NCBI GenBank assembly: GCA_024229395.1 | Contig: JAAESM010000050.1 | Location: 376,758-440,757 of the forward strand | Length of the DNA stretch: 64,000 nucleotides | Direction of reading: 5' to 3' | Source of the DNA: Planctomycetota bacterium | Lineage (GTDB): Bacteria > Planctomycetota > UBA1135 | Shown: positions 48,275 through 64,000 of the stretch, one piece after another | Layout of the letters: every line of letters begins with the position of its first letter | How positions within the stretch are numbered: position 1 is the stretch's first letter | Made by a program: the position numbers and the translations under genes | Notes under the pieces: model-generated | What the model saw: only the letters and a program-made list of their open reading frames with translations | Told to the model about the DNA's origin: nothing | Databases searched by the model: none

Positions 48275-49156
48275 GTGATTGTACCCCCAGAATTGGTGAT
48301 ATACTTCGGCGGAAATTTGGTTTCCAAGCGCTTCGAAAGACTCGGATACGCCTCAACCTTGACTGCCCCCACCTCTTCGCCCAATACGCCCCCCCAACTC
48401 ACCCTCATGGGGTTGGATGTCCATGCAGTCACCAATGTCGAGTGTGTCGACTTCGTGGCCTCGGAATGGGCGGCAGGACGTGGTGGTTGGTTACACACGG
48501 TGAACTTGGATCATCTGCGGATGATCACGGCGGGAAAGTTTTTTGATGGACCTTTGCCTTATGCGGAAATGCGCGTTTGTGACGGTGCGCCGTTGATCTG
48601 GGCAAGCCGCCTGCAAAAAACGCCCTTGCCAGAACGTGTCGCCGGCTCCGACTTGATCCGTAGCCTGACCAAAGCCGCGGCCGAAAACGAGCGCAGTGTC
48701 TATTTCCTCGGCGGAAACCCCGGTTCTGCTGAAGGTGCGGCGGCTCAACTGCAGCAAGAGTTTCCAGGTTTCAAGGTGGCGGGCATTCTGTGCCCCGATT
48801 TCGGATTCGAGAAGGATCCCGAACAGCTCCAGAAGATCACTGATTCCCTAGTCGAATCGCAACCTGACTTGGTATTTGTGGCGGTCGGTGCGCCCAAAAG
48901 TGAGCGCTTGATTCAAGATTGGAAAAAGCTGGTCCCAAAGGCATGGTGGGCCGGTGTGGGCATCAGCTTCAGTTTCGTGACCGGCGAGGTCAAACGTGCA
49001 CCACGTTGGATGCAAGTGACCGGCACCGAATGGATTCACCGCATGCTGCAGGAGCCTGGGCGCCTATTGAAGCGCTATCTGGTGCATGGCATCCCATTCG
49101 CCATCAAAATGTTCTGGCACAGCTTCAAGCAGCGCTCCAAGAAAAAAGGCGAGTAG
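48275..49156 (+). CDS. WecB/TagA/CpsF family glycosyltransferase
   Basis: 'LMGLDVHAVTNVECVDFVASEWAAGRGGWLHTVNLDHLRMI', 'DGAPLIWASRLQKTPLPERVAGSDLI', 'VFVAVGAPKSERLIQDWKKLVPKAWWAGVGISFSFVTGEVKRAPRWMQ', 'GTEWIHRMLQEPGRLLKRYL'. A start at 48407 (MGLDVHA) is plausible. Confidence 0.92.
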   Translation: MIVPPELVIYFGGNLVSKRFERLGYASTLTAPTSSPNTPPQLTLMGLDVHAVTNVECVDFVASEWAAGRGGWLHTVNLDHLRMITAGKFFDGPLPYAEMRVCDGAPLIWASRLQKTPLPERVAGSDLIRSLTKAAAENERSVYFLGGNPGSAEGAAAQLQQEFPGFKVAGILCPDFGFEKDPEQLQKITDSLVESQPDLVFVAVGAPKSERLIQDWKKLVPKAWWAGVGISFSFVTGEVKRAPRWMQVTGTEWIHRMLQEPGRLLKRYLVHGIPFAIKMFWHSFKQRSKKKGE

Positions 49157-49159
49157 TCT

Positions 49160-49194
49160 GCGCCAGCCGCCTAGGTTGGCGGCAGCGCTTTTTT
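49160..49194 (+). terminator. GC-rich hairpin followed by T6 downstream of the WecB/TagA-type gene
   Basis: GCCGCC(49166-49171)-taggtt-GGCGGC(49178-49183), extended with outer GCGC pairs, then CTTTTTTG. Confidence 0.5.
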
Positions 49195-51243
49195 GCGACT
49201 CTTCAGCAGCTCGCGGTAGTAACCACGGCCGTGGAAGATCTTGGCGTTGTGCAATAAGGTTCCAACTGCCGATGGATGCAGCGAGGCAAGCACGTCGCCG
49301 GCGCGTTGAACCTCACCGCGCGTTTGCGCTTGCGCTTCGACCATCAGCACCACCAAGTCCACCGAAGAAGCCATGTGCTCGGCGTCGGCAGAACCCAACA
49401 GTGGGTCGGCACGAATCAAAACCAAGTCATAAGCAGCAGCGGCTTCACGCAGGATTTGGTCCCAACCGGCGAAGACATGCGCCTGGTCGTTGAGTGGATT
49501 ACCGTACTCGCAGAAATCCCAGCCATCACGAGCCACGACTTCTAGGCCACGACCAGCCATCAAGGCAAGGAAACCACCAGTGGTCTGTGCCCCCATCGCT
49601 TTGGCATTGCGCGGCGCGGCGGCATCAACCACCAACACCTTGCGGCCAAAGGCTGCGAGTGCACTTGCGATATCGTTGACCACGTTCTGCGATCCTTTGC
49701 CTGCCTTCACTTCAGTGAATTGAATCAGGCGCGAGGAAGCATAGGACTGGTCTCGATCCAAGGCTAATGCGAAGCGACGAATCTGATCCTTAGCCAGATG
49801 CATCTGCGCACCACGCTTCGGTTCCGGAATCCAGATCGCTGGCGGGAAGCCAAACACCGCTTCCACATCTTGGGTGGTGTGCACGCGGTTATCGCGCATG
49901 TCGATCAGCAAGGGCAGACCGATCGCAAGGATTAAAGTCAAGATGGCGACCAGCGCCAAGTTGCGGATCAGCTTACTCTCACCCTGTTCGGGAGATGTTG
50001 GCGCTTGCGCGATGCTCACGAAACTTGGAGATTGATTCTCCAACTCGAAGTAGTTGAGGCGCTCGGTGATCTGACCATGGCGCTCCAGGTCTTCGGTCAA
50101 GGTGGCTTCCAGCACCATGCCCTCCTGGAAGGAACTGACGAAATCCTTGGCGGTCTTGCCAAGCGTTTCCACTTCAGTGGTCAGTTGTTCGATGCGCTTT
50201 TCAGTACGGCGCAACTCCATCTCATCGGCCACGCGACTCGCTTCAGCGTGACGCACCAACAGATCCCTGATCTGCTGCTCGAGCGACTTCACTTCCTGCT
50301 CCAAACCAGCACGCGCCACGTGACCAGGGTTCATGGCCAACATGCGGTTCATGATATCGGAACGGCGTTCGACTAGCGGGCCGACGACCTGGGCAAGCCC
50401 TTCATTAATCGATTCCGCACCGCCGAGCAAGACCATTTCAAGCATGGCATCGTTGGCATCGAGCGGATCCTCAAGCTCCAACTCCATCTTCATGGTGGTA
50501 GCGGAACGTTCGGCCTCGACTAGGGCAAGGCGAGCGTTCTCCAACGGCGTGACCCATGGGTTGGAACGCGTTTCAGAGAAATCCAAGACGTTGAGATTTT
50601 CGGCGGCGGCCTTCAACAATCCACGCTTCTTCGCGATGGTCTCATCCAACTCCGCGATCAAGCCACGCAACACATCCGGGCGCTCATCCTTTTCGAAGGA
50701 GAACTCCAAGCGGTGGGCGTCAAGGAATGCCGCTAATAGCCCATCCAGGGCATCTTGCAGCACATAAGGGTTGTAACCCGTGACGTCGACTGCGATCCGA
50801 TAGGTGTTGCGCAGTAGGTATACATCTAGAGCGCGCGAGAATCCCGCGACCGCTGCTGCGGACCCCAAGACTTCCGGTGCCCAAACGCCGTTGTCGAGCT
50901 GACCGGCGCGGCGCAAACCATCTTCCAGAACATCGGGGCGCATCATCAGGCCCACTTGCTCATTGCGGAAGATGTCGTACTCGGTGGTGTTGCGCAACTC
51001 GACCTCGCGGTCAGTTTCCAACATGCGTTGGAAGTTGCGCTCAACACGGACTTCGGAGAAGGAAGAGTAGGTCACTTCCTCGCGGTCCACCATGTAGTAG
51101 CCACCAGCTCCCCCCGTAACGATGATCAGGAAAATCGAAAGTATGATGTGCTTTCGAAAACTCTGGAAAAAGTTCAGAGGTTTCGGCTCTGGCTTAGCCC
51201 CCGGGGTGATGGCGGCTAAGCTGTGCGTTTCAGAGATGTTCAA
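49171..51243 (-). CDS. Wzc/GumC-type polysaccharide co-polymerase with degenerate C-terminal tyrosine-kinase (ParA-like) domain
   Basis: 690 aa; N-terminal Wzz-like TM and coiled coil, second TM 'LIRNLALVAILTLILAIGLPLLIDMRDNRVHTTQDVEAVFGFPPAIWIPE', then ATPase-like domain 'QFTEVKAGKGSQNVVNDIASALAAFGRKVLVVDAA'. Confidence 0.88.
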   Translation of the reverse strand: MNISETHSLAAITPGAKPEPKPLNFFQSFRKHIILSIFLIIVTGGAGGYYMVDREEVTYSSFSEVRVERNFQRMLETDREVELRNTTEYDIFRNEQVGLMMRPDVLEDGLRRAGQLDNGVWAPEVLGSAAAVAGFSRALDVYLLRNTYRIAVDVTGYNPYVLQDALDGLLAAFLDAHRLEFSFEKDERPDVLRGLIAELDETIAKKRGLLKAAAENLNVLDFSETRSNPWVTPLENARLALVEAERSATTMKMELELEDPLDANDAMLEMVLLGGAESINEGLAQVVGPLVERRSDIMNRMLAMNPGHVARAGLEQEVKSLEQQIRDLLVRHAEASRVADEMELRRTEKRIEQLTTEVETLGKTAKDFVSSFQEGMVLEATLTEDLERHGQITERLNYFELENQSPSFVSIAQAPTSPEQGESKLIRNLALVAILTLILAIGLPLLIDMRDNRVHTTQDVEAVFGFPPAIWIPEPKRGAQMHLAKDQIRRFALALDRDQSYASSRLIQFTEVKAGKGSQNVVNDIASALAAFGRKVLVVDAAAPRNAKAMGAQTTGGFLALMAGRGLEVVARDGWDFCEYGNPLNDQAHVFAGWDQILREAAAAYDLVLIRADPLLGSADAEHMASSVDLVVLMVEAQAQTRGEVQRAGDVLASLHPSAVGTLLHNAKIFHGRGYYRELLKSRKKALPPT

Positions 51244-52262
51244 TTGCTAGTCGTGACGTCGTAGACGATTCCGAGCTGAGCGATAGGCTGCAGTTGACGG
51301 AAGACCCAACCAATCTCGGCGAGGGTGTGACGTGGAGCAAAGACGATGTCGCCCTTGGCCAAGCCGCGGTTCTGAAGGAAATCACCTTCCGAGAACTCCT
51401 CATAATCGAAGGTGTCTTGCGTGCCTTCGGTCGGACGCAGCAAACGAATGCCGTCGTCGTCACAGTCTTCGGTGATGCCGCCAGCCAGGGCGAGTGCATC
51501 GACCGCAGTCATGCCATGACGCAGTGGGTACATGCCAGGACGCTCCACTTCACCCAATACGTAGATTAGGCGTTGGGTATCGGCAGTGACGTGGATGACG
51601 TCGCCAGGGACGAGTTCCACGTTGAGACTCATGTCGCCATCGTGCAGCAGTTGATCGAGATCGATCCACAGCAGCGATTCCTTGCCACGCATGATCGCGC
51701 AACGTTCCGGGGTGAGACCGTTGGCATCCTTGCGCAAACCATCCGCGGTACCGATTGCGCGCAACAAGGTTGGCACGCCATCGAACTTGTACTCGCCAGG
51801 CGAACCGACACTTCCCAGCACCACGATCGAATAAGCGTTGTAGCTATCGATGCCAAGGGTGACAGAAAGATCCGAGTAGGCATTGGCGAATGCTGCATCG
51901 ACTGCAGCATGGGCATCGGTGCGTAACTTGCCGCCTAGGTGCACATCACCGACGACTGGAAGCGAGATGTAACCATCTGGACCGACACGGTGCGAACCGG
52001 ACAAGTCATCACGACCGAAGACGGTGACTGTGACGTCGTCGCCAGGAGAGATGCGATATCCACTTGCGTTCGCTTTCTCACCAGCGGCACGGAACTCGGC
52101 CAGGATCTCGGTGGCTTCGGAACTGTAATCAGCCGAAGGCCCGCCAACATCAGAGATCGGTGGCAGCGACGAGAAATCAGGCTCAGGAGCGGCGCAAGAT
52201 GTCGCAAAAACCGGCATAGCCAGCGCAGCAACAAGGCAAAACTTTTGCAATTGGGTATTCAT
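51240..52262 (-). CDS. polysaccharide export protein (Wza-like, SLBB-containing)
   Basis: 340 aa; lipobox 'ALAMPVFATSCAA'; 'YRISPGDDVTVTVFGRDDLSGSHRVGPDGYISLPVVGDVHLGGK', SLBB-like 'IVVLGSVGSPGEYKFDGVPTLLRAIGTADGL' and 'IYVLGEVERPGMYPLRHGMTAVDALALAGGITEDC'. Confidence 0.94.
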   Translation of the reverse strand: MNTQLQKFCLVAALAMPVFATSCAAPEPDFSSLPPISDVGGPSADYSSEATEILAEFRAAGEKANASGYRISPGDDVTVTVFGRDDLSGSHRVGPDGYISLPVVGDVHLGGKLRTDAHAAVDAAFANAYSDLSVTLGIDSYNAYSIVVLGSVGSPGEYKFDGVPTLLRAIGTADGLRKDANGLTPERCAIMRGKESLLWIDLDQLLHDGDMSLNVELVPGDVIHVTADTQRLIYVLGEVERPGMYPLRHGMTAVDALALAGGITEDCDDDGIRLLRPTEGTQDTFDYEEFSEGDFLQNRGLAKGDIVFAPRHTLAEIGWVFRQLQPIAQLGIVYDVTTSN

Positions 52263-52421
52263 GATGGAAGCTGAAAGCGATTAAGGCGGAAGCTTAGCAC
52301 TTCTTATCGGCAACTGACGAGCGATTCTATACCCCTAACGGAGAGCTTCAGTAAAGCGTGCGGCGAGCCGCAAACGCCTTAGGATTCAACTCTTGCGAGT
52401 GATACTATTCAGCTAACCATC

Positions 52422-53690
52422 ATGCCCTCTCCACGCGTCCTGATCGTGGCTGAAAACGTGTCCGCACGTTTCGGCGGCGAAGCCTTCTTGCCGTTGCACT
52501 ACTTCCGAGTGCTGCGTGCGCGTGGCGTTCCCGTATGGTTACTGACGCATCAACGAGTCCGCAAAGAGCTCGAGGAGCTGTTTCCCGATGCCGGCGACGC
52601 CATGCTGTTCGTGCCCGATACCAAAATGCAAGTTTTCTTGCATAAGGCCGGCATGAAACTGCCATCACGGATCAAGAGCTTCACCACCAACTTCCTAGTT
52701 CAGATTATATCGGAGCGGATGCAGCGCAAGATCGCACGCGGAATCGTGGCCAAGGAAAAAATAACCGTGGTGCATCAGCCCACCCCAGTGTCGCCGCGCT
52801 TGCCTTCGGGCATGTACAAGGTCAATGCTCCAGTGCTGATCGGTCCTATGAACGGCGGCATGACTTATCCGCCCGCCTTCAGCCATATGGCCAGCAAGCT
52901 CGAAAATGCGATCTTGTGGGTTTTGAGTGGCACGGTGTCGATCGCGCAACGCATCTTCCCTGGCAAACGACGCGCAGCCTTGCTGCTGGTGTCGAATCAA
53001 CGCACCCGCGACGCCCTGCCGCCGATCTTGCGCGATGTTCCGGTCAAGGAACTGGTCGAGAATGGCGTCGACCAGAGCCGCTTCAAGGTCCAGCCGCGCG
53101 AAGCCGCCGACCCGAGCAGGATGACTTTCGCTTTTGTAGGTCGTTTAATCAACTTGAAGGCGGTTGACATCATCTTCGAGGCTCTGGCTGGCTTGGAGAG
53201 CCCGGTAGAGGTGCGCTTGGAGTTGTTCGGCGATGGCGAAGACCGCCAGACTCTTGAGGCGCTGGCCTTGGAGTTAGGCCTGCAAGACCGCGTGGTCTTC
53301 CACGGATTCATGGCTCAAAAGGAAGTCGCAATAAGGCTAGGACAGCTGGATGGCCTAGTCCTTGCCAGTTTGCACGAATGTGGCGGCGCCGTGGTGCTGG
53401 AAGCTATGGCGATGGGTCTGCCAGTGATTGCCACGAATTGGGGCGGTCCGGCTGACTATTTGGACCCAAGCTGCGGAATTTTGCTGGACCCCACCAGCCG
53501 AGAATCACTGGTACAGGAGTTCCGGGCATCGATGAAATTATTGGCCGAAAACCCCGATAAACGCGCAGAAATGGGCAAGGCCGGGCGCGCAAAGGTGGAT
53601 GCGGAGTTTGATTGGGAAGCCAAAGTGGATGCCATGGTGGAGATATATCGCTCCCTGGAGTCTGGCCAGCCGGCCTCCTCGCAGGAATAA
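52422..53690 (+). CDS. glycosyltransferase family 4
   Basis: 'RVLIVAENVSARFGGEAFLPLHYFRVLRARG', 'MTFAFVGRLINLKAVDIIFEALAGLESPVEVRLELFGDGEDRQ', 'LHECGGAVVLEAMAMGLPVIATNWGGPADYL'. Confidence 0.94.
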   Translation: MPSPRVLIVAENVSARFGGEAFLPLHYFRVLRARGVPVWLLTHQRVRKELEELFPDAGDAMLFVPDTKMQVFLHKAGMKLPSRIKSFTTNFLVQIISERMQRKIARGIVAKEKITVVHQPTPVSPRLPSGMYKVNAPVLIGPMNGGMTYPPAFSHMASKLENAILWVLSGTVSIAQRIFPGKRRAALLLVSNQRTRDALPPILRDVPVKELVENGVDQSRFKVQPREAADPSRMTFAFVGRLINLKAVDIIFEALAGLESPVEVRLELFGDGEDRQTLEALALELGLQDRVVFHGFMAQKEVAIRLGQLDGLVLASLHECGGAVVLEAMAMGLPVIATNWGGPADYLDPSCGILLDPTSRESLVQEFRASMKLLAENPDKRAEMGKAGRAKVDAEFDWEAKVDAMVEIYRSLESGQPASSQE

Positions 53691-53795
53691 TTGCAGGCTT
53701 CGTTTCGCCTGGAAATCTCTGAAAATCAAGCTTAAGTCGAAGTCGCTTTTATCCGTTGTTGGACTATGAGCGCCCTCGTGTATCTACCTAATTCC

Positions 53796-55955
53796 ATGTC
53801 GCAGTCCAGTTTAGGCCTTGTCAAAGGCTTCCTCACAACACTTGCTCTTGCCACACTCGCCAGTTGCGGCGGCGGTGGCGGTGATGTGGTCAGCTCAGGT
53901 GGCGGCGGCGGTAGTACCTCGCTGAACTTTTCGTCGCCGTGGGCAGGCATCAATCTGGCAGCACCAAACCAACTGCCAGCACCATCGGCGGGCCAAGGCT
54001 CCGGAGGCATTGCTGCGGGCGCAAACTATGCTTCGGAAGTTGGCGCGGAAAACCTGGCTGCTGTCCCTCAGGGTGGACGCTTCAACCCCAACTACGCCAG
54101 CGACACACCGAAGAAGTCGGCGCGCTTGGCATGGGGTACTTATTGGTTGGATATGTCGGACAAGCGCGAGGCCACGGCGATCGTCTTGAATTGGCTGGAC
54201 CAACCGCTACCGAGTAATGTATGGATTGGATTAGCGAACTGGGATAAGAACCGTTGGGCTTGGCGCAAGATTTCGTCCTTGAACAAGGTCACACCTCCGA
54301 ACTCGTTGGATCCTTACATTCGCGATTCCGACAACATGCTTGCTTGCACAATCCTCGTCATTGGTGCGGACCCAGCGGTGCTCGACACCGTGGCCACCAA
54401 CCAGAGCGGCGACACCCCGCCCCCAGAGGCCGACGGACTGCTGAACGAAAATGCGCACTTGGGCATCAACCTCGGCACCGTGGATGACTGGAACCCCACC
54501 ACCGTGTTTACCGACGTCTTCAAGACCTCGAAGACCTGGATTCCACAGGATGTCGTCGGCGGTCCATGGGATAACGGCCACGCCATCAACGTAGACAGCA
54601 ATGGCTGGGTCACTTCTTTGGATCCTGGCCAAGCGGTGATTGCAGTGATGATGACCAACATGGTCGGCGTTTATCCAGAAGGCAACTACACATGCCTTTA
54701 CGACGGCGACGGCACCATCGAGTTCACCCTCAATGCCAGTGTGGTATCGGCGGAACCTGGTCGCTTGATCGTCCATGTGGAGAGTGACGGCACCATTGGT
54801 CTGCGCATCACATCCACCAACCCTGCGGATTATGTGCGCAACATCAGGCTGATTATTCCTGGTTATGAAAACACTTATGAGACCCAGGTTTTCCATCCTG
54901 ATTTCCTCGCCAGCATCGATGAATTCAACGTGCTGCGCTTTATGGATTGGGGTTGGACCAACACCGCTCAAGTCGAGGACTGGAGCGATCGCACCAAGCT
55001 GACCAGTTCCACCCAGACACGCAGCGAAAGCGCAGGTGTCTGCCTCGAACACATGATCGACTTGTGCAACACGCAACTGGCTGACGCATGGATCTGCATC
55101 CCCTACAAAGCGACGGATGATTATGTGCAGAAGGCCGCGGCACTGATTCAGGCCCGCCTTGACCCACACCTGCGCGTTCATATCGAATACAGCAATGAGG
55201 TGTGGAACGGCGTGTTCCAAGTCGCCAACTACGCCCGCGATAAGGGCCTTTCCGCTGGGCTATCCACCAACGCTTTCCAAGCACAGATGCGCTGGTACTC
55301 GCAACGTAGTCAAGAGATTCACACCATCTTCGCTGATGCCTTCGTGGATGAGCCGGAACGCCTGCTGCGCATTGTTGCCGGCCAGAGCACCAACCCTTGG
55401 GTAGGCACCACCGTGATGGATTGGGATGGCACTGCAGGCGAAGTTGATGACACCAATGTTGCCGACCGCTTCGATCACTACGCAGCCGCGCCTTACTTCG
55501 GTAACTCCTTGGGTCTGGAGCCACAAGCAAGCATTACCGCAACTTGGACAATGGAACAGCTGCTCACTGCTTGTGAGGCGGAGAGTCTGGCCGCGACCGG
55601 CCCAGGCAGTTCCACCGAGTCGAATGCCAACAACGCCACAACACGTGGGATCACACTGATTTCCTACGAAGGTGGTCAACACCTTGCGGGTGTCGGCCCG
55701 GCCGTCAACAACGACGACCTGACCACACTGTTCACCGCTGCAAACCGCAACGAAGGCATGCGCCAGCTTTACTTGGACCACATGCGCCGCTGGTCGGCAG
55801 CCGGTGGTGGCCTGTTCGTGGCTTACAACCACGTCGGTATCTACTCCAAGTTCGGTAGTTGGGGCTTGCTCGAGAACCAGAACCAAGATCCAGAAACAGC
55901 ACCAAAGCTGCAAGGCTTGCTGGACTGGGTCGGCGAGTTGACAGCTGCGGAATAG
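53796..55955 (+). CDS. large secreted lipoprotein, glycoside-hydrolase-like (function uncertain)
   Basis: Start at 53796 (MSQSSLGLVKGFLTTLALATLASCGGGGGD lipobox + Gly linker) or 53766. 'HLRVHIEYSNEVWNGVFQVANYARDKGL' and 'GITLISYEGGQHLAG' look like TIM-barrel carbohydrate-active contexts. Confidence 0.65.
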   Translation: MSQSSLGLVKGFLTTLALATLASCGGGGGDVVSSGGGGGSTSLNFSSPWAGINLAAPNQLPAPSAGQGSGGIAAGANYASEVGAENLAAVPQGGRFNPNYASDTPKKSARLAWGTYWLDMSDKREATAIVLNWLDQPLPSNVWIGLANWDKNRWAWRKISSLNKVTPPNSLDPYIRDSDNMLACTILVIGADPAVLDTVATNQSGDTPPPEADGLLNENAHLGINLGTVDDWNPTTVFTDVFKTSKTWIPQDVVGGPWDNGHAINVDSNGWVTSLDPGQAVIAVMMTNMVGVYPEGNYTCLYDGDGTIEFTLNASVVSAEPGRLIVHVESDGTIGLRITSTNPADYVRNIRLIIPGYENTYETQVFHPDFLASIDEFNVLRFMDWGWTNTAQVEDWSDRTKLTSSTQTRSESAGVCLEHMIDLCNTQLADAWICIPYKATDDYVQKAAALIQARLDPHLRVHIEYSNEVWNGVFQVANYARDKGLSAGLSTNAFQAQMRWYSQRSQEIHTIFADAFVDEPERLLRIVAGQSTNPWVGTTVMDWDGTAGEVDDTNVADRFDHYAAAPYFGNSLGLEPQASITATWTMEQLLTACEAESLAATGPGSSTESNANNATTRGITLISYEGGQHLAGVGPAVNNDDLTTLFTAANRNEGMRQLYLDHMRRWSAAGGGLFVAYNHVGIYSKFGSWGLLENQNQDPETAPKLQGLLDWVGELTAAE

Positions 55956-56150: not shown

Positions 56151-59100
56151 CTACTGACCGCGGCGCGCCCGACGTAGTGCCGCACGTTTCGCCGCCGCAC
56201 TTTGTGGCGCCCCGCCTGAAGGTCCACCGTTGGTCGCAGCAGCAGGCTTCTTGCCTTCTTGCTCGGCCGCCAAGAAGGTCGCCAAGCTACGCACCGTCGA
56301 GTGACTGAATAGCGCGATCAAAGCAACCTCTATGCCATGTTCTGCCATCAAGATGCGCTTCAAGCTGATGGTCAGCAAGGAGTGGCCGCCTAGGTCAAAG
56401 AAGTTGGCGTTGCGATCGAGACTGTTAAGACCAAGGATGTCGATCCAGATCTTCTCCAGCGCGTCTTCCAACTCTGCTGCCGACATCTCCACAGCCTCAA
56501 CAGCCGCGGCTTGGGGCTGAGCCTTCGGTGCTGGCGGAATCGGCGCTGCGGCCACTCCACCACCTCCTTGAGCCAAGGCCTTGCGATCGGTCTTGCCGTT
56601 ATTCGTCTTCGGGAAGCGCTCGTGCACATGGAATTCACGTGGAATCATGTACTCCGGCAGGCAAGTACGCAGGAAGGAACGAAGTTCCTCAATCTCCAAC
56701 TTACTGTTGGCCTCCAACACGAAGTGTGCCGCTAAGACGCGCGCCCCCAGTGGATTCGTGACCACTAGAACTGCGGCTTGCGAGACCTCTTCATGGCTGA
56801 GCATGGCGGCTTCGATCTCACCGAGTTCGATGCGATAACCATTGACCTTCACTTGTGAGTCGCCGCGGCCCATGAAACGCATGGTGCCATCGGGCAACTG
56901 ACGCACTTGGTCGCCAGACTTGTACAGCAGGCCTTCGCCACTGGCGTCGAAAGGATCCTGCAAGAATGCCGACGACGTCAGATCGGGCTTACCGAGGTAA
57001 CCGCGTGCGACACACAATCCCGCAATGAAAAGCTCACCAGGAAGTCCCGGTGGCACCAACTGCAGGTTGGCATCCAAGGCATAGAAGCGATTGTTGGCCA
57101 ACGGTTCACCAAGACTGACCACAGTGGTGTCGTGTTCGATGTCGGCGGTCGAGGACCAGATCGCGGTTTCGGTCAGGCCATACATATTCATGACGCGACC
57201 GGGCACGATGGCGCGCAGTTTCGAAGCGAGATCTTCGGTGAGGGCTTCCCCACCGACCATCATCACGTCGAGCGTGCCGAGGGCCTCGGTGATAGCGGAT
57301 TCCGCCAGCAACATGGTGGCCATCGACGGCGTGCATTGCAGATGCGTCGCCTTGTGGGTGAGGATCAGGTCCTCTAGGTTTTCGCGCGCTTCTAGGCCCT
57401 GTTGACCACCTTGCACACGTTCCTTGAACTGCTGAAGATACGGCAGTTGTTTCAGGATCAACTCGGGCTCAGCGCCAAAGTCCACCAGACAGGCGATTTC
57501 ATCGACTTCCAGGTCGCGCATCTTGTCGACCATGCCCAAGCAGGATTCGGGGGTGCCGAATAGCGCGTCACTCTCGAAGTAACGCTTGTAGGCGAAGTCG
57601 AGCAGGTCTTGCACGTCTTCCCCAGCGAGATCCGACAAGTTGAAATCGGTGTCGTACTTACCCTTGTTCATCGGCGTACGCACTGCCGCCCACGCCGACA
57701 TGTGGTCCTTCAGCAAGTCAGCGGCCGTTGCCAGATAGGAACAGAATGGACCGCGCGCGAGTTCGCGCAGCTCTTCACGATCTTCACCAAGCATGGTGTG
57801 CAACATCATCGTCACATGGCCGGAACCGGGGTGACCGGCTTCGCGCCAAGCGTCGCGGTAGACCTGAATCTTCGAAGCGATCTCGTCGGTGGTCTGCCCT
57901 AACAAGTGGGTGAGGATATGCACGCCCATCTCGCCAGCAAGGCGGAAGGTCTCGGGGTTGCCTGCGGCCGTCAGCCAAACCGGTAGTTCCGGTTGCACCG
58001 GGCGTGGGCGGGTGATGATCTCGGGTGTTTCGCCGACACCATTCCTCAGTTCCAAGGCTTCGCCGCGCCATGCACTTCGTAAAGTGCCGATGCGGGTCTT
58101 CATGATCTGCTTGCGGTCTTCATAAGAATCCGGCTCAAGCACGAAATCGTTGGGGTGCCACCCAGAGGCAATGCCCAGACCCACGCGCCCACCGGATAGG
58201 TTGTCGACCATTGCCCAGTCTTCGGCCATCAGGACCGGGTCGTGGAATGGCAACACCACACTGCCCGTGCGCAGGTGAATATCGTTGGTCACGGCGGCGA
58301 TTGCGGCGGCAGAAACGGCCGGGTTGGGGTAGATTCCGCCGAAATCATGGAAGTGTCGTTCCGGCAGCCAAATAGCCCGGAAACCATGCGAATCGCCAAA
58401 ACGAGCCGTTTCCAGCATCAAGTCATAGGGATTCGGAGCACCAGCTCCACCACCAGAAGCGCCCCACAGCATCAAGCTGAACTCAACCTGGCCTGCATCG
58501 TGAGGTGCAGGGGCATGCGCGGCTCGTAGGCCACGGTCGAAGCCTTCGAAGATCACCAACTTGTAACCGCGACTCAAGGTCCAAAGCAGTTCCAACACAG
58601 AGATGTCAAAGGACAGACTGGTCACGGCCACCCATACACCAGGCTCCACACCAAGGCGTTCGTCCATGCCCAAGAAGAAGTTGGTCACTTGCTCGTGCTC
58701 CAACATCACGCCCTTGGGATTGCCGGTCGATCCAGAGGTGTAGATCACATAAGCCAGGTTCGAAGGGGTTGGCACCTTCGGTGGTGCCGGTTCGAATGCC
58801 GGCAAAGGTTGATCCATCAGGATTAAGGTCTCGACCGAGTCATCCACCAAAGAGGACGACCACGCATCGCTCAAGACGATGCTCACGCCAGAGTCCTCCA
58901 CCATGTAACGCAAACGCGATGGTGGAAAGTCAGGATCCAACGGCAAGTAAGCCGCACCAGACTTCAGGATGCCAAGCAAAGCCACCATCATGTCGGTGGT
59001 GCGTTGCATGCAGATACCAACCATAGAGTCGGGGCCGGCACCGAGGCTGGCCAAGTACGAGGCTAGATGATCGGCACGTTGTTCTAATTCTTCATAGGTG

Positions 59101-60887
59101 AGTTCTTCACCTGCGGCTACGACGGCGACTGCATTGCCCATGCTGACGGCCTTTTCGCGGATCAGCTCATGGACCAACTGCCCTTGTGGCAAGTCGCGCG
59201 TGCTGTCATTCCAACCTTCCAGAATCTGCCGACGCTGATCCTCCGGCAGCAGCTGCAGATGCATCACAGGCGTGTTTGGAGCTGCGCAAATGGCTTCCAG
59301 CAGGGTTTCAAGCTGCTGCGCCATGGCTTCGGCATCGGCGCTGGAATAGCGATTCTCCGCATATTCCAGCCACAATTGACCCTCTGCGGTTGCACGGTAG
59401 ACCAACACGGAATCCTCAGCTTGAGGATCGGAGGCGCCAATCACGATGGCGATCTCAGGCAGACACACGCGCCCTTGGGTTTCGGCGTTCCTCGAACGCC
59501 CCTGCAAGTCATGCAGGAATGGCGGCAGCGATCTGCAAGTCGCGACTTGCTGCTCCACCATTTTCATGCTGGCGGCAAAGTCATGTTGATCTTGGAACTC
59601 CACGCCAAGGGGCACCGATGCAGAGAGCAGCTGATCCATACCAGCAACACGCTCGGTCAAATGGTCATCCACATAACGCACGCGAAGACCCTGTTGACGC
59701 GCAAGGCGTGATAAGTGAATCAAACTTACCGTACCTAAGGAAGCTGCAAAATCAGGAGCCTGACTCTGCGCCAAGAATTCCGACGGCACCGCAATCTCGC
59801 GCTTCAACAGCGCGCCATCCGCAACACTGTTCGGGCTTTGGTCGTAGGCCAAGGCCGGCGGATCAAAAGCGGCAAAGGCTTCCAGCCAGGTAGCTTCGTG
59901 CTCGCTGATCGCGGGCAAGGATTTGGTCAGCGAAGTCAACAATTTAGGGGATGGTGAGGGCAAGACCTGCCCGATCCGAATCCCCTCAAACGCCAGCCAA
60001 TCAAGGATTTCGACGGAATTACCAGTCAAATCCTGTAGGCCGGTGATGCGTAAATTGCCATCGGCGGTGGCCACTACGAGGCCTCGCTCGGAAGCAGCCA
60101 AGATCGTGCCAGCAGTAACACTCTCCTTGCTTGGTTCGGCAATCGCACCGGAGATGCCAACAGCCTGATCGCTGACCAACATCTTGGCCATGCAGAATGG
60201 GTTGTTGTAGGAACCGTAATCCAAACCATGGACCATGGCCTCCAACTCTGCGGCACTGCGCGACCACTGCATCAACCCCCAATGATCCGGGCGTTGATCG
60301 CGGCCAAACGGCAAGCGCGCCGACTCCACCTGTGGAACACGCTCAAAGCTTTCGTCCAGCAACTGCGGCAACAATTCCTCGAAGCCACTCAAGGCTGCCT
60401 CGAAACACTTCATGTTCAAGGAGACGGTGGTGTCATTGGCCTCGATCGGCACCGTCACATGCTTGAGGATGTCGCCTAGGCCAACTTCGGCCTCCGCGAT
60501 ATGCCAACAGACTCCAAAATCGAGCTCCTGGTTCATCAGGGCCCACGCCGGTCCGTTCGGGCCGGAATACCGTGGCAAGGGACTGTCTTGGATATTGATT
60601 GCCGCGATTTTGGGCAAAGTGCGTAAAAAATCCGGGACAATATTTAGCCAAGTGATGCTAAATACATAATCACAATTCCAAGATTCAATATCGCTCTTTT
60701 CGAGGTTTTTTGCGCTGCGAACTTCGATTTTGTGGGCCTCTGCCCAATCACGAATTCGAGGGCTATCAGAAAGCACCCCCGAAATCCCGAGATTCAGGCT
60801 GAGAAGGCGCTCTGCGCACTCCAGAAGAAGTGAATCGTTGCCGATGAGTACACAGTTACGCTTGTTCAGAGTTGTATTTGAATCCAT
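56151..60887 (-). CDS. NRPS: formyltransferase-like - partial condensation - adenylation interrupted by luciferase-like FMN monooxygenase - PCP
   Basis: 1578 aa. F-like: 'AINIQDSPLPRYSGPNGPAWALMNQELDFGVCWHIAEAEVGLGDIL' plus FMT-C-like 'GTILAASERGLVVATADGNLRITGLQDL'. A: 'LAYVIYTSGSTGNPKGVMLEH', 'TSLSFDISVLELLWTLSRGYKLVIF', 'MNMYGLTETAIWSS', 'GRGDSQVKVNGYRIELGEIE', 'NGKTDRKAL'. LLM: 'VEFSLMLWGASGGG...FGDSHGFRAIWLPERHFHDFGGIYPNPAVSAAAIAAVTNDIHLRTGSVVLPFHDPV'. PCP: 'NFFDLGGHSLLTISLKRI'. Confidence 0.93.
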   Translation of the reverse strand: MDSNTTLNKRNCVLIGNDSLLLECAERLLSLNLGISGVLSDSPRIRDWAEAHKIEVRSAKNLEKSDIESWNCDYVFSITWLNIVPDFLRTLPKIAAINIQDSPLPRYSGPNGPAWALMNQELDFGVCWHIAEAEVGLGDILKHVTVPIEANDTTVSLNMKCFEAALSGFEELLPQLLDESFERVPQVESARLPFGRDQRPDHWGLMQWSRSAAELEAMVHGLDYGSYNNPFCMAKMLVSDQAVGISGAIAEPSKESVTAGTILAASERGLVVATADGNLRITGLQDLTGNSVEILDWLAFEGIRIGQVLPSPSPKLLTSLTKSLPAISEHEATWLEAFAAFDPPALAYDQSPNSVADGALLKREIAVPSEFLAQSQAPDFAASLGTVSLIHLSRLARQQGLRVRYVDDHLTERVAGMDQLLSASVPLGVEFQDQHDFAASMKMVEQQVATCRSLPPFLHDLQGRSRNAETQGRVCLPEIAIVIGASDPQAEDSVLVYRATAEGQLWLEYAENRYSSADAEAMAQQLETLLEAICAAPNTPVMHLQLLPEDQRRQILEGWNDSTRDLPQGQLVHELIREKAVSMGNAVAVVAAGEELTYEELEQRADHLASYLASLGAGPDSMVGICMQRTTDMMVALLGILKSGAAYLPLDPDFPPSRLRYMVEDSGVSIVLSDAWSSSLVDDSVETLILMDQPLPAFEPAPPKVPTPSNLAYVIYTSGSTGNPKGVMLEHEQVTNFFLGMDERLGVEPGVWVAVTSLSFDISVLELLWTLSRGYKLVIFEGFDRGLRAAHAPAPHDAGQVEFSLMLWGASGGGAGAPNPYDLMLETARFGDSHGFRAIWLPERHFHDFGGIYPNPAVSAAAIAAVTNDIHLRTGSVVLPFHDPVLMAEDWAMVDNLSGGRVGLGIASGWHPNDFVLEPDSYEDRKQIMKTRIGTLRSAWRGEALELRNGVGETPEIITRPRPVQPELPVWLTAAGNPETFRLAGEMGVHILTHLLGQTTDEIASKIQVYRDAWREAGHPGSGHVTMMLHTMLGEDREELRELARGPFCSYLATAADLLKDHMSAWAAVRTPMNKGKYDTDFNLSDLAGEDVQDLLDFAYKRYFESDALFGTPESCLGMVDKMRDLEVDEIACLVDFGAEPELILKQLPYLQQFKERVQGGQQGLEARENLEDLILTHKATHLQCTPSMATMLLAESAITEALGTLDVMMVGGEALTEDLASKLRAIVPGRVMNMYGLTETAIWSSTADIEHDTTVVSLGEPLANNRFYALDANLQLVPPGLPGELFIAGLCVARGYLGKPDLTSSAFLQDPFDASGEGLLYKSGDQVRQLPDGTMRFMGRGDSQVKVNGYRIELGEIEAAMLSHEEVSQAAVLVVTNPLGARVLAAHFVLEANSKLEIEELRSFLRTCLPEYMIPREFHVHERFPKTNNGKTDRKALAQGGGGVAAAPIPPAPKAQPQAAAVEAVEMSAAELEDALEKIWIDILGLNSLDRNANFFDLGGHSLLTISLKRILMAEHGIEVALIALFSHSTVRSLATFLAAEQEGKKPAAATNGGPSGGAPQSAAAKRAALRRARRGQ

Positions 60888-60988
60888 AATGGAGCTCTTG
60901 AGTGGCCAAGTTTTTGGGTTTCTCTTTCCATAGGGAAAAGTAACACAGAAAAGAACCCCATTCTGGGTGGTTTCTGAACTTACTTAAA

Positions 60989-63900
60989 TTGTCTACATCC
61001 GCGAACCCACAACAGACGGTTGCCTTTCCTGAAGGTGCCATTGCCGTCGTCGGCACGGCTTGCCATCTGCCGGGCGCGCGAAATGCTGCCGAATTCTGGA
61101 ACAACTTGCGCAATGGTGTGGAATCGGTGCACTTCTTTACGGATGAGGAATTGCTCGCAGCAGGTGTGCCCGCTGCAAGGCTGACTGATCCGAACTATGT
61201 CAAGGCCAGTCCAACGCTGGATCAAGTCGCTGGCTTCGATCCCGGCTTCTGGGGCATTTCGCCGAAAGACGCCGCGATCATGGACCCGCAGCATCGGCAT
61301 TTCTTGGAGTGTGCCTATGAAGCACTCGAAGATGCCGGTCATGACTCGCAACGTTTTGATGGCACCATTGGTGTGTTCGGCGGCTGCGGCGCGAACTCTT
61401 ACTTGATGTTCAACTTGCTGACCAATCCGCAACTGGTGGATTCCGTCGGCATGTTCCTGTTGCGTCACACCAACAACGACAAGGATTTCCTGACCACCTT
61501 CACTTCCTACAAGATGGAACTGGAAGGGCCAAGCGTTGGTATTCAGACCGCATGCTCGACCTCCTTGGTGGCGATTCATGTTGCGGCACAACATCTACTC
61601 AACGGCGAGTGCGATATGGCTTTGGCGGGTGGTTCCACTATCGAGATTCCCCATCAAGCCGGTTATCGCTCCGAGCAAGGCGATATCCTTTCGCCCGATG
61701 GCCACTGTCGCCCCTTCGATGCCTCTTCCGCCGGCACCGTCTTCGGTAGTGGCGCCGGCATGGTGGTCTTGCGTTGCCTTGAAGACGCGATTGCCGACGG
61801 CGATACGATTCGCGCAGTGTTGCGTGGTTCCGCAGTCAATAATGATGGTGCGCGCAAAGCCGGTTATCTGGCACCCAGTGTCGATGGTCAAGCACACGCC
61901 GTCGCCGAGGCCTTAGCCGTTGCCGACGTACCTGCCGACAGCATCTCTTATCTGGAGACGCACGGCACCGGCACTCCGGTTGGGGATCCGATTGAGGTCG
62001 CGGGCCTCACGCAGGCCTTCCGCGAAACCACCGACGGTACCGGATTCTGCGCCATTGGTTCCTGCAAATCGAATATCGGCCATGCCGATACCGCTGCAGG
62101 TGTGGCGAGTTTCCTGAAGGTGGTCGAAGCGCTGCAACACGAGCAGCTGCCGCCTAGCCTGTTCTTCGATCAACCGAACCCGCTGATTGAATTCGACGCG
62201 AGTCCTTTCTACGTCAATGCCAAACTGCAAGCTTGGCCACGTAGCGAGCAACCCCGACGTGCTGGCGTGAACTCCTTGGGTGTCGGTGGCACCAATGCAC
62301 ACGCGATCCTTGAAGAGGCGCCGCTGCAACAAAGCGATGAGGCCACGCGCAGCATGCAGATCTTGCCGTTGTCGGCCAAGACACGCACCGCCTTGGATGC
62401 GATGTGCGAACGCCTTGCTGACGCACTGGAACAACAAGCCGAAGTCAAGTTGGCTGATGTCGCGTTCACCCTTCAACAAGGCCGCCGCGAGATGGAGCAT
62501 CGCCGCACCATCACTTGCAGCAGTGTTGCCGAAGCGATTGCCTTACTGCGCGAGCACAAGCCACCGCATGTACGTCAAGGACAGCTCAATGATCGCCTAG
62601 GGCAACGTTCCTTAGCATTCTTGTTGCCTGGCGGCGGCGCTCAATATGCGCAGATGGCGCGCGATCTGTACGACAAGGAAGCGAGTTTCCGCGCCACCTT
62701 GGATCGCGGTTTCGACATCCTTGCTCAGCAACACGACGTGGATCTCCGTCCCATTCTGCTGGCGGAAGCCACAGACGAGATTCGCACGCAACTGGAACGC
62801 CCTTCGATTCAATTGCCGGCGATTTTCCTTGTGGAAGTCGCGCTCGGCGAGTTGTTGATGCGTTGGGGTTTACAACCCGATGCCCTTCTCGGACATAGCC
62901 TCGGCGAGAACAGTGCTGCCTATCTTGCAGGTGTGTTCCCCTTCGAAGGTGGGCTTGGCCTCGTTGCCTTACGCGGAAAGTTGTTCGAATCGCTTCCGCC
63001 TGGCGGCATGGTCAGCGTGGCAATGCCGGCTTCGGAAGTGGAGCCGCTGCTATCTGAGCAACTCGTAATCGGAGTACACAACACGCCACAACAATGCGTG
63101 GTTTCCGGTCCGCCGCAGGCCTTGCAGGAGTTGCACAGCGTGTTGGAGGAACATGGCATGGATTGGTGCCCGGTCAAGATCGACTGCGCCGCACACTCCC
63201 CCATGCTCGAGCCGATCCTGCAGCAGTTTGGCGATTACATTCGCGGCCTGGAGTTGCAGGCGCCGCACATCCCGATGGTCTCGAACTACACGGGCCAATG
63301 GCTAACCGACCAAGAAGCCACCGATCCTGAATATTGGGTCAAACATCTGCGTCATCCAGTGCTGTTTTCCGACGGCACCGCCTTGCTGCTGCAGGACAAG
63401 GCACGCGTCATGCTCGAGGTCGGTCCTGGCAAGGGCTTGGCATCGCTGGCACGTCAGCATCCAAATGCTTCGAGTAATCATGTGTTCCTGTCTGCGATGC
63501 GTCATCGTGATGAGAAGTCCGATGACTTGGATTTCTTATTAGGTGTCGTCGGCCAGTTGTGGAATATTGGCATCGCGCCGGACTGGCAAGGCTTGCATGG
63601 CAGCGACAAGCGCCTGCGCATCCCACTGCCTACCTATCCCTTCGAGCGCCAGGATTATTGGATCGAAGCCGGAGCACCGCAAGCCGAGCAAAGTGCCGCA
63701 CAGAATGCCTTCGAGCAACTCGAATCGCTTGATGATTGGTTCAGCCAGGAGAGTTGGAGTGGCGTCATCTGCCCCACTTTGGATCTTGCTGCACTGAAGC
63801 AACCGCAGCGCTGGCTGTTGTTCCTGGATCGCCTTGGTTTGGGCGGTGCTTTGGCTGCGCGTTTACGGGCTGCCGGTCAAGAAGTGATCACGGTACGCGA

Positions 63901-64000
63901 AGGCGACACCTACTACCGCTTCGATGAGCAAGAGTTTGCCTTGTCTCCAGAAGCCGGTCGCGAGGATTACGATTCTCTATTCAGCGCGTTGGAAAGTGCT
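60989..64000 (+). CDS. type I polyketide synthase (KS-AT-..., partial, runs off window)
   Basis: Frame open from TAA at 60941-60943 to the window end; not in the ORF track. KS: 'AIAVVGTACHLPGARNAAEFWNNLRNG', 'IQTACSTSLVAIHVAAQHLLNGECDMALAGG', 'ETHGTGTPVGDPIEV', 'KSNIGHADTAAGVASFLK'. AT: 'LAFLLPGGGAQYAQMARDLY', 'LLGHSLGENSAAYLAG', 'RIPLPTYPFERQDYWIE'. No in-frame ATG before the KS; TTG 60989 or CTG 60974 are candidate starts. Confidence 0.93.
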   Translation, partial: MSTSANPQQTVAFPEGAIAVVGTACHLPGARNAAEFWNNLRNGVESVHFFTDEELLAAGVPAARLTDPNYVKASPTLDQVAGFDPGFWGISPKDAAIMDPQHRHFLECAYEALEDAGHDSQRFDGTIGVFGGCGANSYLMFNLLTNPQLVDSVGMFLLRHTNNDKDFLTTFTSYKMELEGPSVGIQTACSTSLVAIHVAAQHLLNGECDMALAGGSTIEIPHQAGYRSEQGDILSPDGHCRPFDASSAGTVFGSGAGMVVLRCLEDAIADGDTIRAVLRGSAVNNDGARKAGYLAPSVDGQAHAVAEALAVADVPADSISYLETHGTGTPVGDPIEVAGLTQAFRETTDGTGFCAIGSCKSNIGHADTAAGVASFLKVVEALQHEQLPPSLFFDQPNPLIEFDASPFYVNAKLQAWPRSEQPRRAGVNSLGVGGTNAHAILEEAPLQQSDEATRSMQILPLSAKTRTALDAMCERLADALEQQAEVKLADVAFTLQQGRREMEHRRTITCSSVAEAIALLREHKPPHVRQGQLNDRLGQRSLAFLLPGGGAQYAQMARDLYDKEASFRATLDRGFDILAQQHDVDLRPILLAEATDEIRTQLERPSIQLPAIFLVEVALGELLMRWGLQPDALLGHSLGENSAAYLAGVFPFEGGLGLVALRGKLFESLPPGGMVSVAMPASEVEPLLSEQLVIGVHNTPQQCVVSGPPQALQELHSVLEEHGMDWCPVKIDCAAHSPMLEPILQQFGDYIRGLELQAPHIPMVSNYTGQWLTDQEATDPEYWVKHLRHPVLFSDGTALLLQDKARVMLEVGPGKGLASLARQHPNASSNHVFLSAMRHRDEKSDDLDFLLGVVGQLWNIGIAPDWQGLHGSDKRLRIPLPTYPFERQDYWIEAGAPQAEQSAAQNAFEQLESLDDWFSQESWSGVICPTLDLAALKQPQRWLLFLDRLGLGGALAARLRAAGQEVITVREGDTYYRFDEQEFALSPEAGREDYDSLFSALESA

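Follow-up and report, generated by a model that had tools for sequence, protein, structure and literature searches.

What does a nonribosomal peptide synthetase (NRPS) do when it begins with a formyltransferase-like domain, carries an incomplete condensation segment, and has a monooxygenase inserted in its adenylation domain? One such protein is encoded in the window (the whole 64,000-nucleotide stretch of a Planctomycetota contig analysed here). An earlier note, made from the sequence alone, had read it as a loading module that activates and oxidizes an amino acid, possibly by N-hydroxylation, for a divergently encoded polyketide synthase (PKS), with the formyltransferase-like (F) domain initiating the line. 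We lean toward a modified form of that reading: the NRPS would be the first of two proteins in an NRPS-PKS line, a starter module that loads glycine and oxidizes it at carbon, with the formyl step lost and the F domain retained as a non-catalytic part.

Domain organization and family

The reading frame starts with ATG and has no internal stops (Table 1). Pfam and TIGR04020 agree with the domain order read earlier: F (Formyl_trans_N at residues 64-165, Formyl_trans_C at 205-298), the C-terminal lobe of a condensation (C) domain, the first part of an adenylation (A) domain, a luciferase-like monooxygenase (LLM; Bac_luciferase at 802-1129), the rest of the A domain (AMP-binding_C at 1357-1432), and a carrier protein (PCP; PP-binding at 1476-1539). 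The Pfam AMP-binding match is split into two stretches, the best at 578-788, and the interruption is indeed flanked by A4 (SFDISVLELLW) and A5 (NMYGLTE). An AlphaFold model of the A-LLM-A-PCP part, built from an alignment of relatives, had a mean pLDDT of 80.7 and matched the adenylation domain 1amu (TM on target 0.83), but the placement of its domains is uncertain because its pTM was only 0.52.

Table 1. Positions of the NRPS, its domains, and neighboring features in the window
Feature	Residues	Position	Strand	Remarks
NRPS, whole gene		56151..60887	-	Single ORF, 1578 aa; architecture shared by congeners and by members of other phyla
F domain, N-terminal part	1-180	60348..60887	-	FMT/ArnA fold
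Triad substitution, His to Gln	100	60588-60590	-	
Triad substitution, Asp to Gly	136	60480-60482	-	
F domain, C-terminal part	181-310	59958..60347	-	Formyl_trans_C; Foldseek match to FMT over ~310 aa
C-terminal condensation lobe	311-560	59208..59957	-	Without N lobe and HHxxxDG
A domain, N-terminal part (A1-A4)	566-790	58518..59192	-	Code positions D761 I762 L765
LLM (FMN), between A4 and A5	803-1154	57426..58481	-	TIGR04020, PuwE 6ket, model
A domain, C-terminal part (A5-A10)	1165-1440	56568..57395	-	Code positions Q1184 M1210 G1212 M1235 I1243 W1244 K1432
PCP	1476-1539	56271..56462	-	GGHS attachment motif; PF00550
Intergenic stretch, divergent NRPS/PKS		60888..60988		
Type I PKS, KS-AT-(KR...) part in window		60989..64000	+	Full gene 2142 aa, L009:747-7175
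Lipoprotein-like 729-aa protein, unknown family		53766..55955	+	Convergent with NRPS; no Pfam match
Exopolysaccharide genes		48275..53690		WecG-type GT, Wzc-like, Wza-like Poly_export, GT4

The protein has full-length relatives in two congeners, G002 (66% identity) and G004 (63%), and relatives at 38-40% in other members of the order. In over 70 of the examined sequences, order relatives included, F, A, LLM, and A lie in one ORF. Scanning 85,000 genomes gave at least 570 confirmed relatives of the region made up of F and the C lobe, and the best 80 of these came from Planctomycetota, Acidobacteriota, Myxococcota, Pseudomonadota, Chloroflexota, Gemmatimonadota, Actinomycetota, and others. RefSeq plasmid copies are annotated as MupA/Atu3671 family FMN-dependent luciferase-like monooxygenase; because NCBI annotates such proteins in this way, the class is already known by name. 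Aminobacter WP_108610162.1 and Ruegeria WP_223118738.1, so named, match over their full length (36-39% identity over 97%). The F-dC-A(LLM)-PCP architecture is thus not new but widespread, and the class, which the earlier note said has relatives, is larger and more uniform than could then be known. In the open-licence literature we found no papers on Atu3671, on the NRPS-PKS pair, or on the chemistry or biochemistry of the family, though such papers may exist.

On a Paracoccus marcusii plasmid (L130:11836-16427) the annotation divides the NRPS between two overlapping genes, one for a formyltransferase family protein and one for the remainder; the division could be natural, the result of a frameshift, or an error in sequencing.

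The F domain has lost two triad residues in one genus

Alignment to LgrA and ArnA places the catalytic triad of the F domain at N98, Gln100 (for His), and Gly136 (for Asp); these columns are those of N102/H104/D140 in ArnA and of the triad in the LgrA F domain. Among 84 aligned family sequences the triad reads N-H-D in 81 and N-Q-G in three. The three are the window protein and its two congeners, that is, every F-bearing member of the genus (3/3); the three remaining genomes of the genus gave no F-type match. Some 27 additional sequences, drawn from the phylum, the order, and plasmids, all read N-H-D, bringing the N-H-D total to about 108, and no N-Q-G member turned up among those checked outside the genus (order, 154 genomes searched; phylum sample, 392 genomes). 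In a tree the N-Q-G sequences form one monophyletic clade (n=3, support 100). Four of 22 near-invariant columns in the N-terminal part are altered in all three congeners (F99I, H100Q, G102S, and D136G), all of them at the catalytic site.

The fold itself is intact. An AlphaFold model of F plus the C lobe, from an alignment of relatives, had a mean pLDDT of 87.9, and Foldseek matched its F part to the complete two-part fold of methionyl-tRNA formyltransferase and ArnA (TM on target 0.81-0.85), which the window protein shares without two of the three catalytic residues. Within the genus the N-terminal part of F is 59-64% identical, against 63-66% for the whole protein; for comparison, the N-H-D pair L014-L016 shows 60.6% at a whole-protein identity of 64.9%. 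The dN of F within the genus is 0.29-0.46, well below a dS that is near or beyond saturation. The F domain thus keeps its fold under purifying selection although triad residues are lost. A decaying F domain was considered and ruled out, given an identity profile like that of N-H-D pairs and a dN far below the (saturated) dS.

Since the triad reads N-Q-G in this genus, the F domain there is most likely a pseudo-formyltransferase retained as a structural part, and formylation would have been lost, while family F domains with intact N-H-D probably formylate the glycine. The proposal that F is an initiating formyltransferase is therefore not borne out for the genus. As in LgrA of linear gramicidin synthesis, the F, A, and PCP domains follow one another in an initiation order, a formyltransferase fold stands N-terminal to a loading A-PCP, and the F domains align; unlike the window protein, LgrA has the triad and has neither a C lobe between F and A nor an LLM. 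The window genome, a metagenome-assembled genome (MAG) of 87% completeness, holds two other formyltransferase-fold genes of 231 and 322 aa, which from their size are presumably PurN- and Fmt-like, respectively; no third was found in it. What is new here is the triad-dead F domain specific to the genus, a variant within a known architecture. By comparison, the MupA/Atu3671-type NRPSs that were checked have N-H-D and, in aligned relatives, an AWSFPAF-type LLM segment, which is altered in the window protein.

The condensation segment is a C-terminal lobe

The earlier reading of a condensation segment without HHxxxDG holds up. Pfam Condensation matched only in its last 52 positions (residues 505-556), below the gathering cut-off. 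In hhalign, the segment at ~320-560 aligned to positions 181-453 of the full C domains of C-A-LLM relatives (probability 97.9), whose HHLVLDG lies at positions 143-149, upstream of the aligned region. The C-lobe profile also matched solved C domains, in their C-terminal part. The protein therefore has a C-terminal lobe but neither the HHxxxDG motif nor the N lobe of a condensation domain, and in all aligned F-type relatives F occupies the place of the N lobe. Lacking an active site, this lobe would probably serve as a docking platform for the A domain rather than catalyze condensation.

Two relatives in the order (L040:7016-11410 and L044:11546-14919) have a full condensation domain in place of F, giving C-A-LLM-A; the motif of one is FHHLVLDG and that of the other FPHILLDG.

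A glycine-type adenylation domain with an embedded monooxygenase

The ten-residue code of the A domain, which the earlier note had proposed to predict, is by alignment DILQMGMIWK, close to the published glycine code DILQLGLIWK. The code is identical in 40 of 84 family sequences, nearly all other LLM-bearing ones differ at one or two positions, and the pattern among LLM-bearing relatives is DILQ(M/L/F/C/Y)G(M/V)(I/V)WK. The A domain is accordingly predicted, from a code of the glycine type, to activate glycine. The few clearly different codes are confined to members without an LLM (L071, L090, and L109).

F-type modules without an LLM were seen at L071, L090, L109, L097, and L116; the code at L109 is DFWNIGMVHK, and two of the five, from Sphingomonas, retain the glycine code. 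In the closest relative outside the genus (L038:6480-12368, G049:C2) the A domain is interrupted twice, by an LLM at A4-A5 and by a methyltransferase domain (residues ~1470-1570) ahead of AMP-binding_C.

TIGR04020, the model for MupA/Atu3671 LLMs, scored 468.3 bits against a cut-off of 244.45 and was matched over positions 1-340 of 341, inside the interval (57420-58495) where the LLM had been placed. The closest solved LLM is that of PuwE from puwainaphycin synthesis (PDB 6ket), which scored 341 bits and superposed on the LLM model with a TM on target of 0.85 at 43% identity; it was solved as a lone monooxygenase domain, whereas the window LLM sits inside an A domain. The domain is predicted from these matches to be an FMN-dependent oxygenase of a carrier-bound substrate.

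In the three congeners the LLM carries altered near-invariant residues in one segment (A1063M, W1064S, F1066W, P1067A, and F1069V), with further losses at T841, R886L, F1100Y, and G1108A. Without these residues, the genus LLM may act on a substrate different from that of the family. The same column test found changes at 6 of 165 columns in the KS of the PKS and at 9 of 79 in the C-terminal part of the A domain, and none in the PKS AT, KR, ACP, and TE or in the NRPS PCP; because the A domain is altered as well, this pattern of remodeling is suggestive only. A resemblance of the genus LLM to that of F-less C-A-LLM proteins was ruled out, as the latter retain an SFPxF-like segment.

A conserved PKS partner

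The divergent PKS has the order KS-AT-KR-DH-ACP-TE with all catalytic motifs present. Of 96 relative loci, 61 carry a PKS that matches this partner at more than 500 bits, and many of the 96 are cut off by the end of a contig; weaker matches at relative loci are carrier or TE domains only. No PKS match was found within the fetched stretch of the order relatives L033 and L037. The glycine-module NRPS is thus usually paired with a complete PKS, and the partner is conserved across phyla. A PPTase gene lies downstream in the window genome and in both congeners, and such a gene often accompanies the pair in exopolysaccharide loci. A scan of the intergenic stretch gave no sigma-70-like promoter match.

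Proposed route and alternatives

The absence of a functional C domain, the glycine code, the intact LLM, the PCP, and the conserved PKS partner fit a loading module; this part of the earlier proposal, that an amino acid is activated and oxidized on behalf of the divergent PKS, stands, and the formylating role of F does not fit in this genus. The A domain would load glycine onto its own PCP. The embedded LLM, supplied with reduced flavin by a general reductase, would then oxidize this glycyl thioester; by analogy with other systems, the alpha carbon is the most likely site. In myxothiazol and melithiazol synthesis, monooxygenases inserted between A4 and A5 of glycine A domains hydroxylate the glycyl alpha carbon (PMC10204066), and MupA likewise hydroxylates an alpha carbon (PMC10952193). 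The likeness to MtaG and MelG extends to the A4-A5 insertion and the glycine code; unlike the window protein, which has F and no usable C domain, both serve as terminal modules to a chain built upstream, and amide release by carbinolamide cleavage does not fit an NRPS with neither functional C nor TE.

The hand-over to the PKS and the product, as we infer them, would then be as follows. The oxidized C2 starter may pass to the KS for a single malonyl extension, the AT motif GHSLG presumably indicating malonyl, after which the PKS would reduce and dehydrate the chain and its TE would release the product. In the relatives, N-formylation may stabilize or direct the oxidized glycine. More speculatively, a formyl-carbinolamide could fragment into formamide plus a glyoxylyl thioester; where there is no formyl group, release of ammonia could give the same glyoxylyl, and this would account, again as speculation, for the formyl step being dispensable.

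The main difficulty for this route is that MupA works on a beta-ketoacyl-ACP and is inactive on substrates lacking the beta-keto group (PMC10952193); glycyl-S-PCP has no such group, so the LLM may act at another stage. It could hydroxylate, in trans and like MupA, the alpha carbon of a beta-ketoacyl-ACP on the PKS. The need of MupA for a beta-keto thioester carried by its cognate ACP (PMC10952193), the origin of PuwE in a hybrid PKS/NRPS, and the conservation of the partner PKS would agree with this. It is a serious rival that we nonetheless consider less likely, as the LLM is embedded in a glycine A domain beside the PCP, the MtaG/MelG insertions act on glycyl (PMC10204066), and L033 and L037 are among several order relatives whose fetched stretch showed no PKS match.

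Oxidation at nitrogen, raised in the earlier note, is possible but less supported than oxidation at the alpha carbon, as both precedents (PMC10204066 and PMC10952193) oxidize carbon. It would yield an N-hydroxy or N-formyl-N-hydroxy starter for a hydroxamate-type chelator, and formyl and hydroxyl groups on one nitrogen would indeed be siderophore-like, with F and LLM occurring together in most relatives. We judge it quite improbable: known LLMs of the MupA/Atu3671 family oxidize carbon, no siderophore genes were recognized beside the window's NRPS-PKS pair, whose neighbors are exopolysaccharide genes, and the formyl step is probably absent in the genus.

Equally doubtful is that F in the genus is still an enzyme, with a changed chemistry or donor. 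Its intact, selected fold with substitutions confined to the active site is what such an enzyme might show, and folate-fold proteins can use other acceptors, but none of the three species retains the general-base His or the Asp, and no replacement residue is evident.

A fragmented MAG and a degenerate F active site might suggest an artificially fused ORF or a pseudogene in decay. Either is exceedingly improbable, because G002, G004, and more than 70 other genomes share the one-piece ORF in the same order, so that independent assemblies rule out a fusion or frameshift artefact (the earlier note had named such a fusion as something that would refute its reading), and because the ORF is stop-free, its dN is well below dS, and the PKS is intact.

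Exopolysaccharide context and significance

Exopolysaccharide genes lie near the NRPS in the congeners as they do in the window. To the right of the window (L009:8315-11167) are genes for an exosortase (EpsH), a DUF3485 protein, and a bacterial sugar transferase, a trio that also flanks the NRPS-PKS pair in G007 (L039) and G006 (L043). On the Aminobacter, Ruegeria, and Paracoccus plasmids the pair stands amid glycosyltransferase, flippase, export, or sugar-transferase genes, with a PPTase alongside in Aminobacter and Paracoccus. In the order, an exopolysaccharide marker was present in 6 of 12 stretches at NRPS loci (two from the same G006 locus) versus 0 of 20 stretches hand-picked elsewhere in the same and related genomes; as the marker set was derived from the window and from these plasmids, its absence elsewhere is weak evidence.

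Glycine-LLM-formyl starter modules, usually with one PKS and spread over many phyla, constitute a large unexplored biosynthetic family, and their frequent location in exopolysaccharide loci suggests cell-surface chemistry rather than antibiotics. Our tentative guess is that the line joins glycine and malonate into a short product tied to exopolysaccharide, either joined to it or produced alongside it, and that in this genus formylation has been switched off, F serves as a scaffold, and F, LLM, and KS, which would meet the nitrogen of the starter, have been remodeled together for a different starter. The loss of the triad in the genus is a natural experiment, in which comparison with N-H-D members can show the purpose of the formyl group; the triad-dead F domain also bears on whether assembly lines retain dead domains as structural parts.

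The 729-aa protein has a lipoprotein-like signal, and its EYSNEVWN stretch gives the impression of a glycoside hydrolase. Large ORFs of comparable size occupy the corresponding position in both congeners (L030 5844-8081 and L031 12838-15321). To the right of the sugar transferase, a transposase-like ORF (L009:11260-12279) is followed by transport and nitrate-reductase-like genes, as read from their translations.
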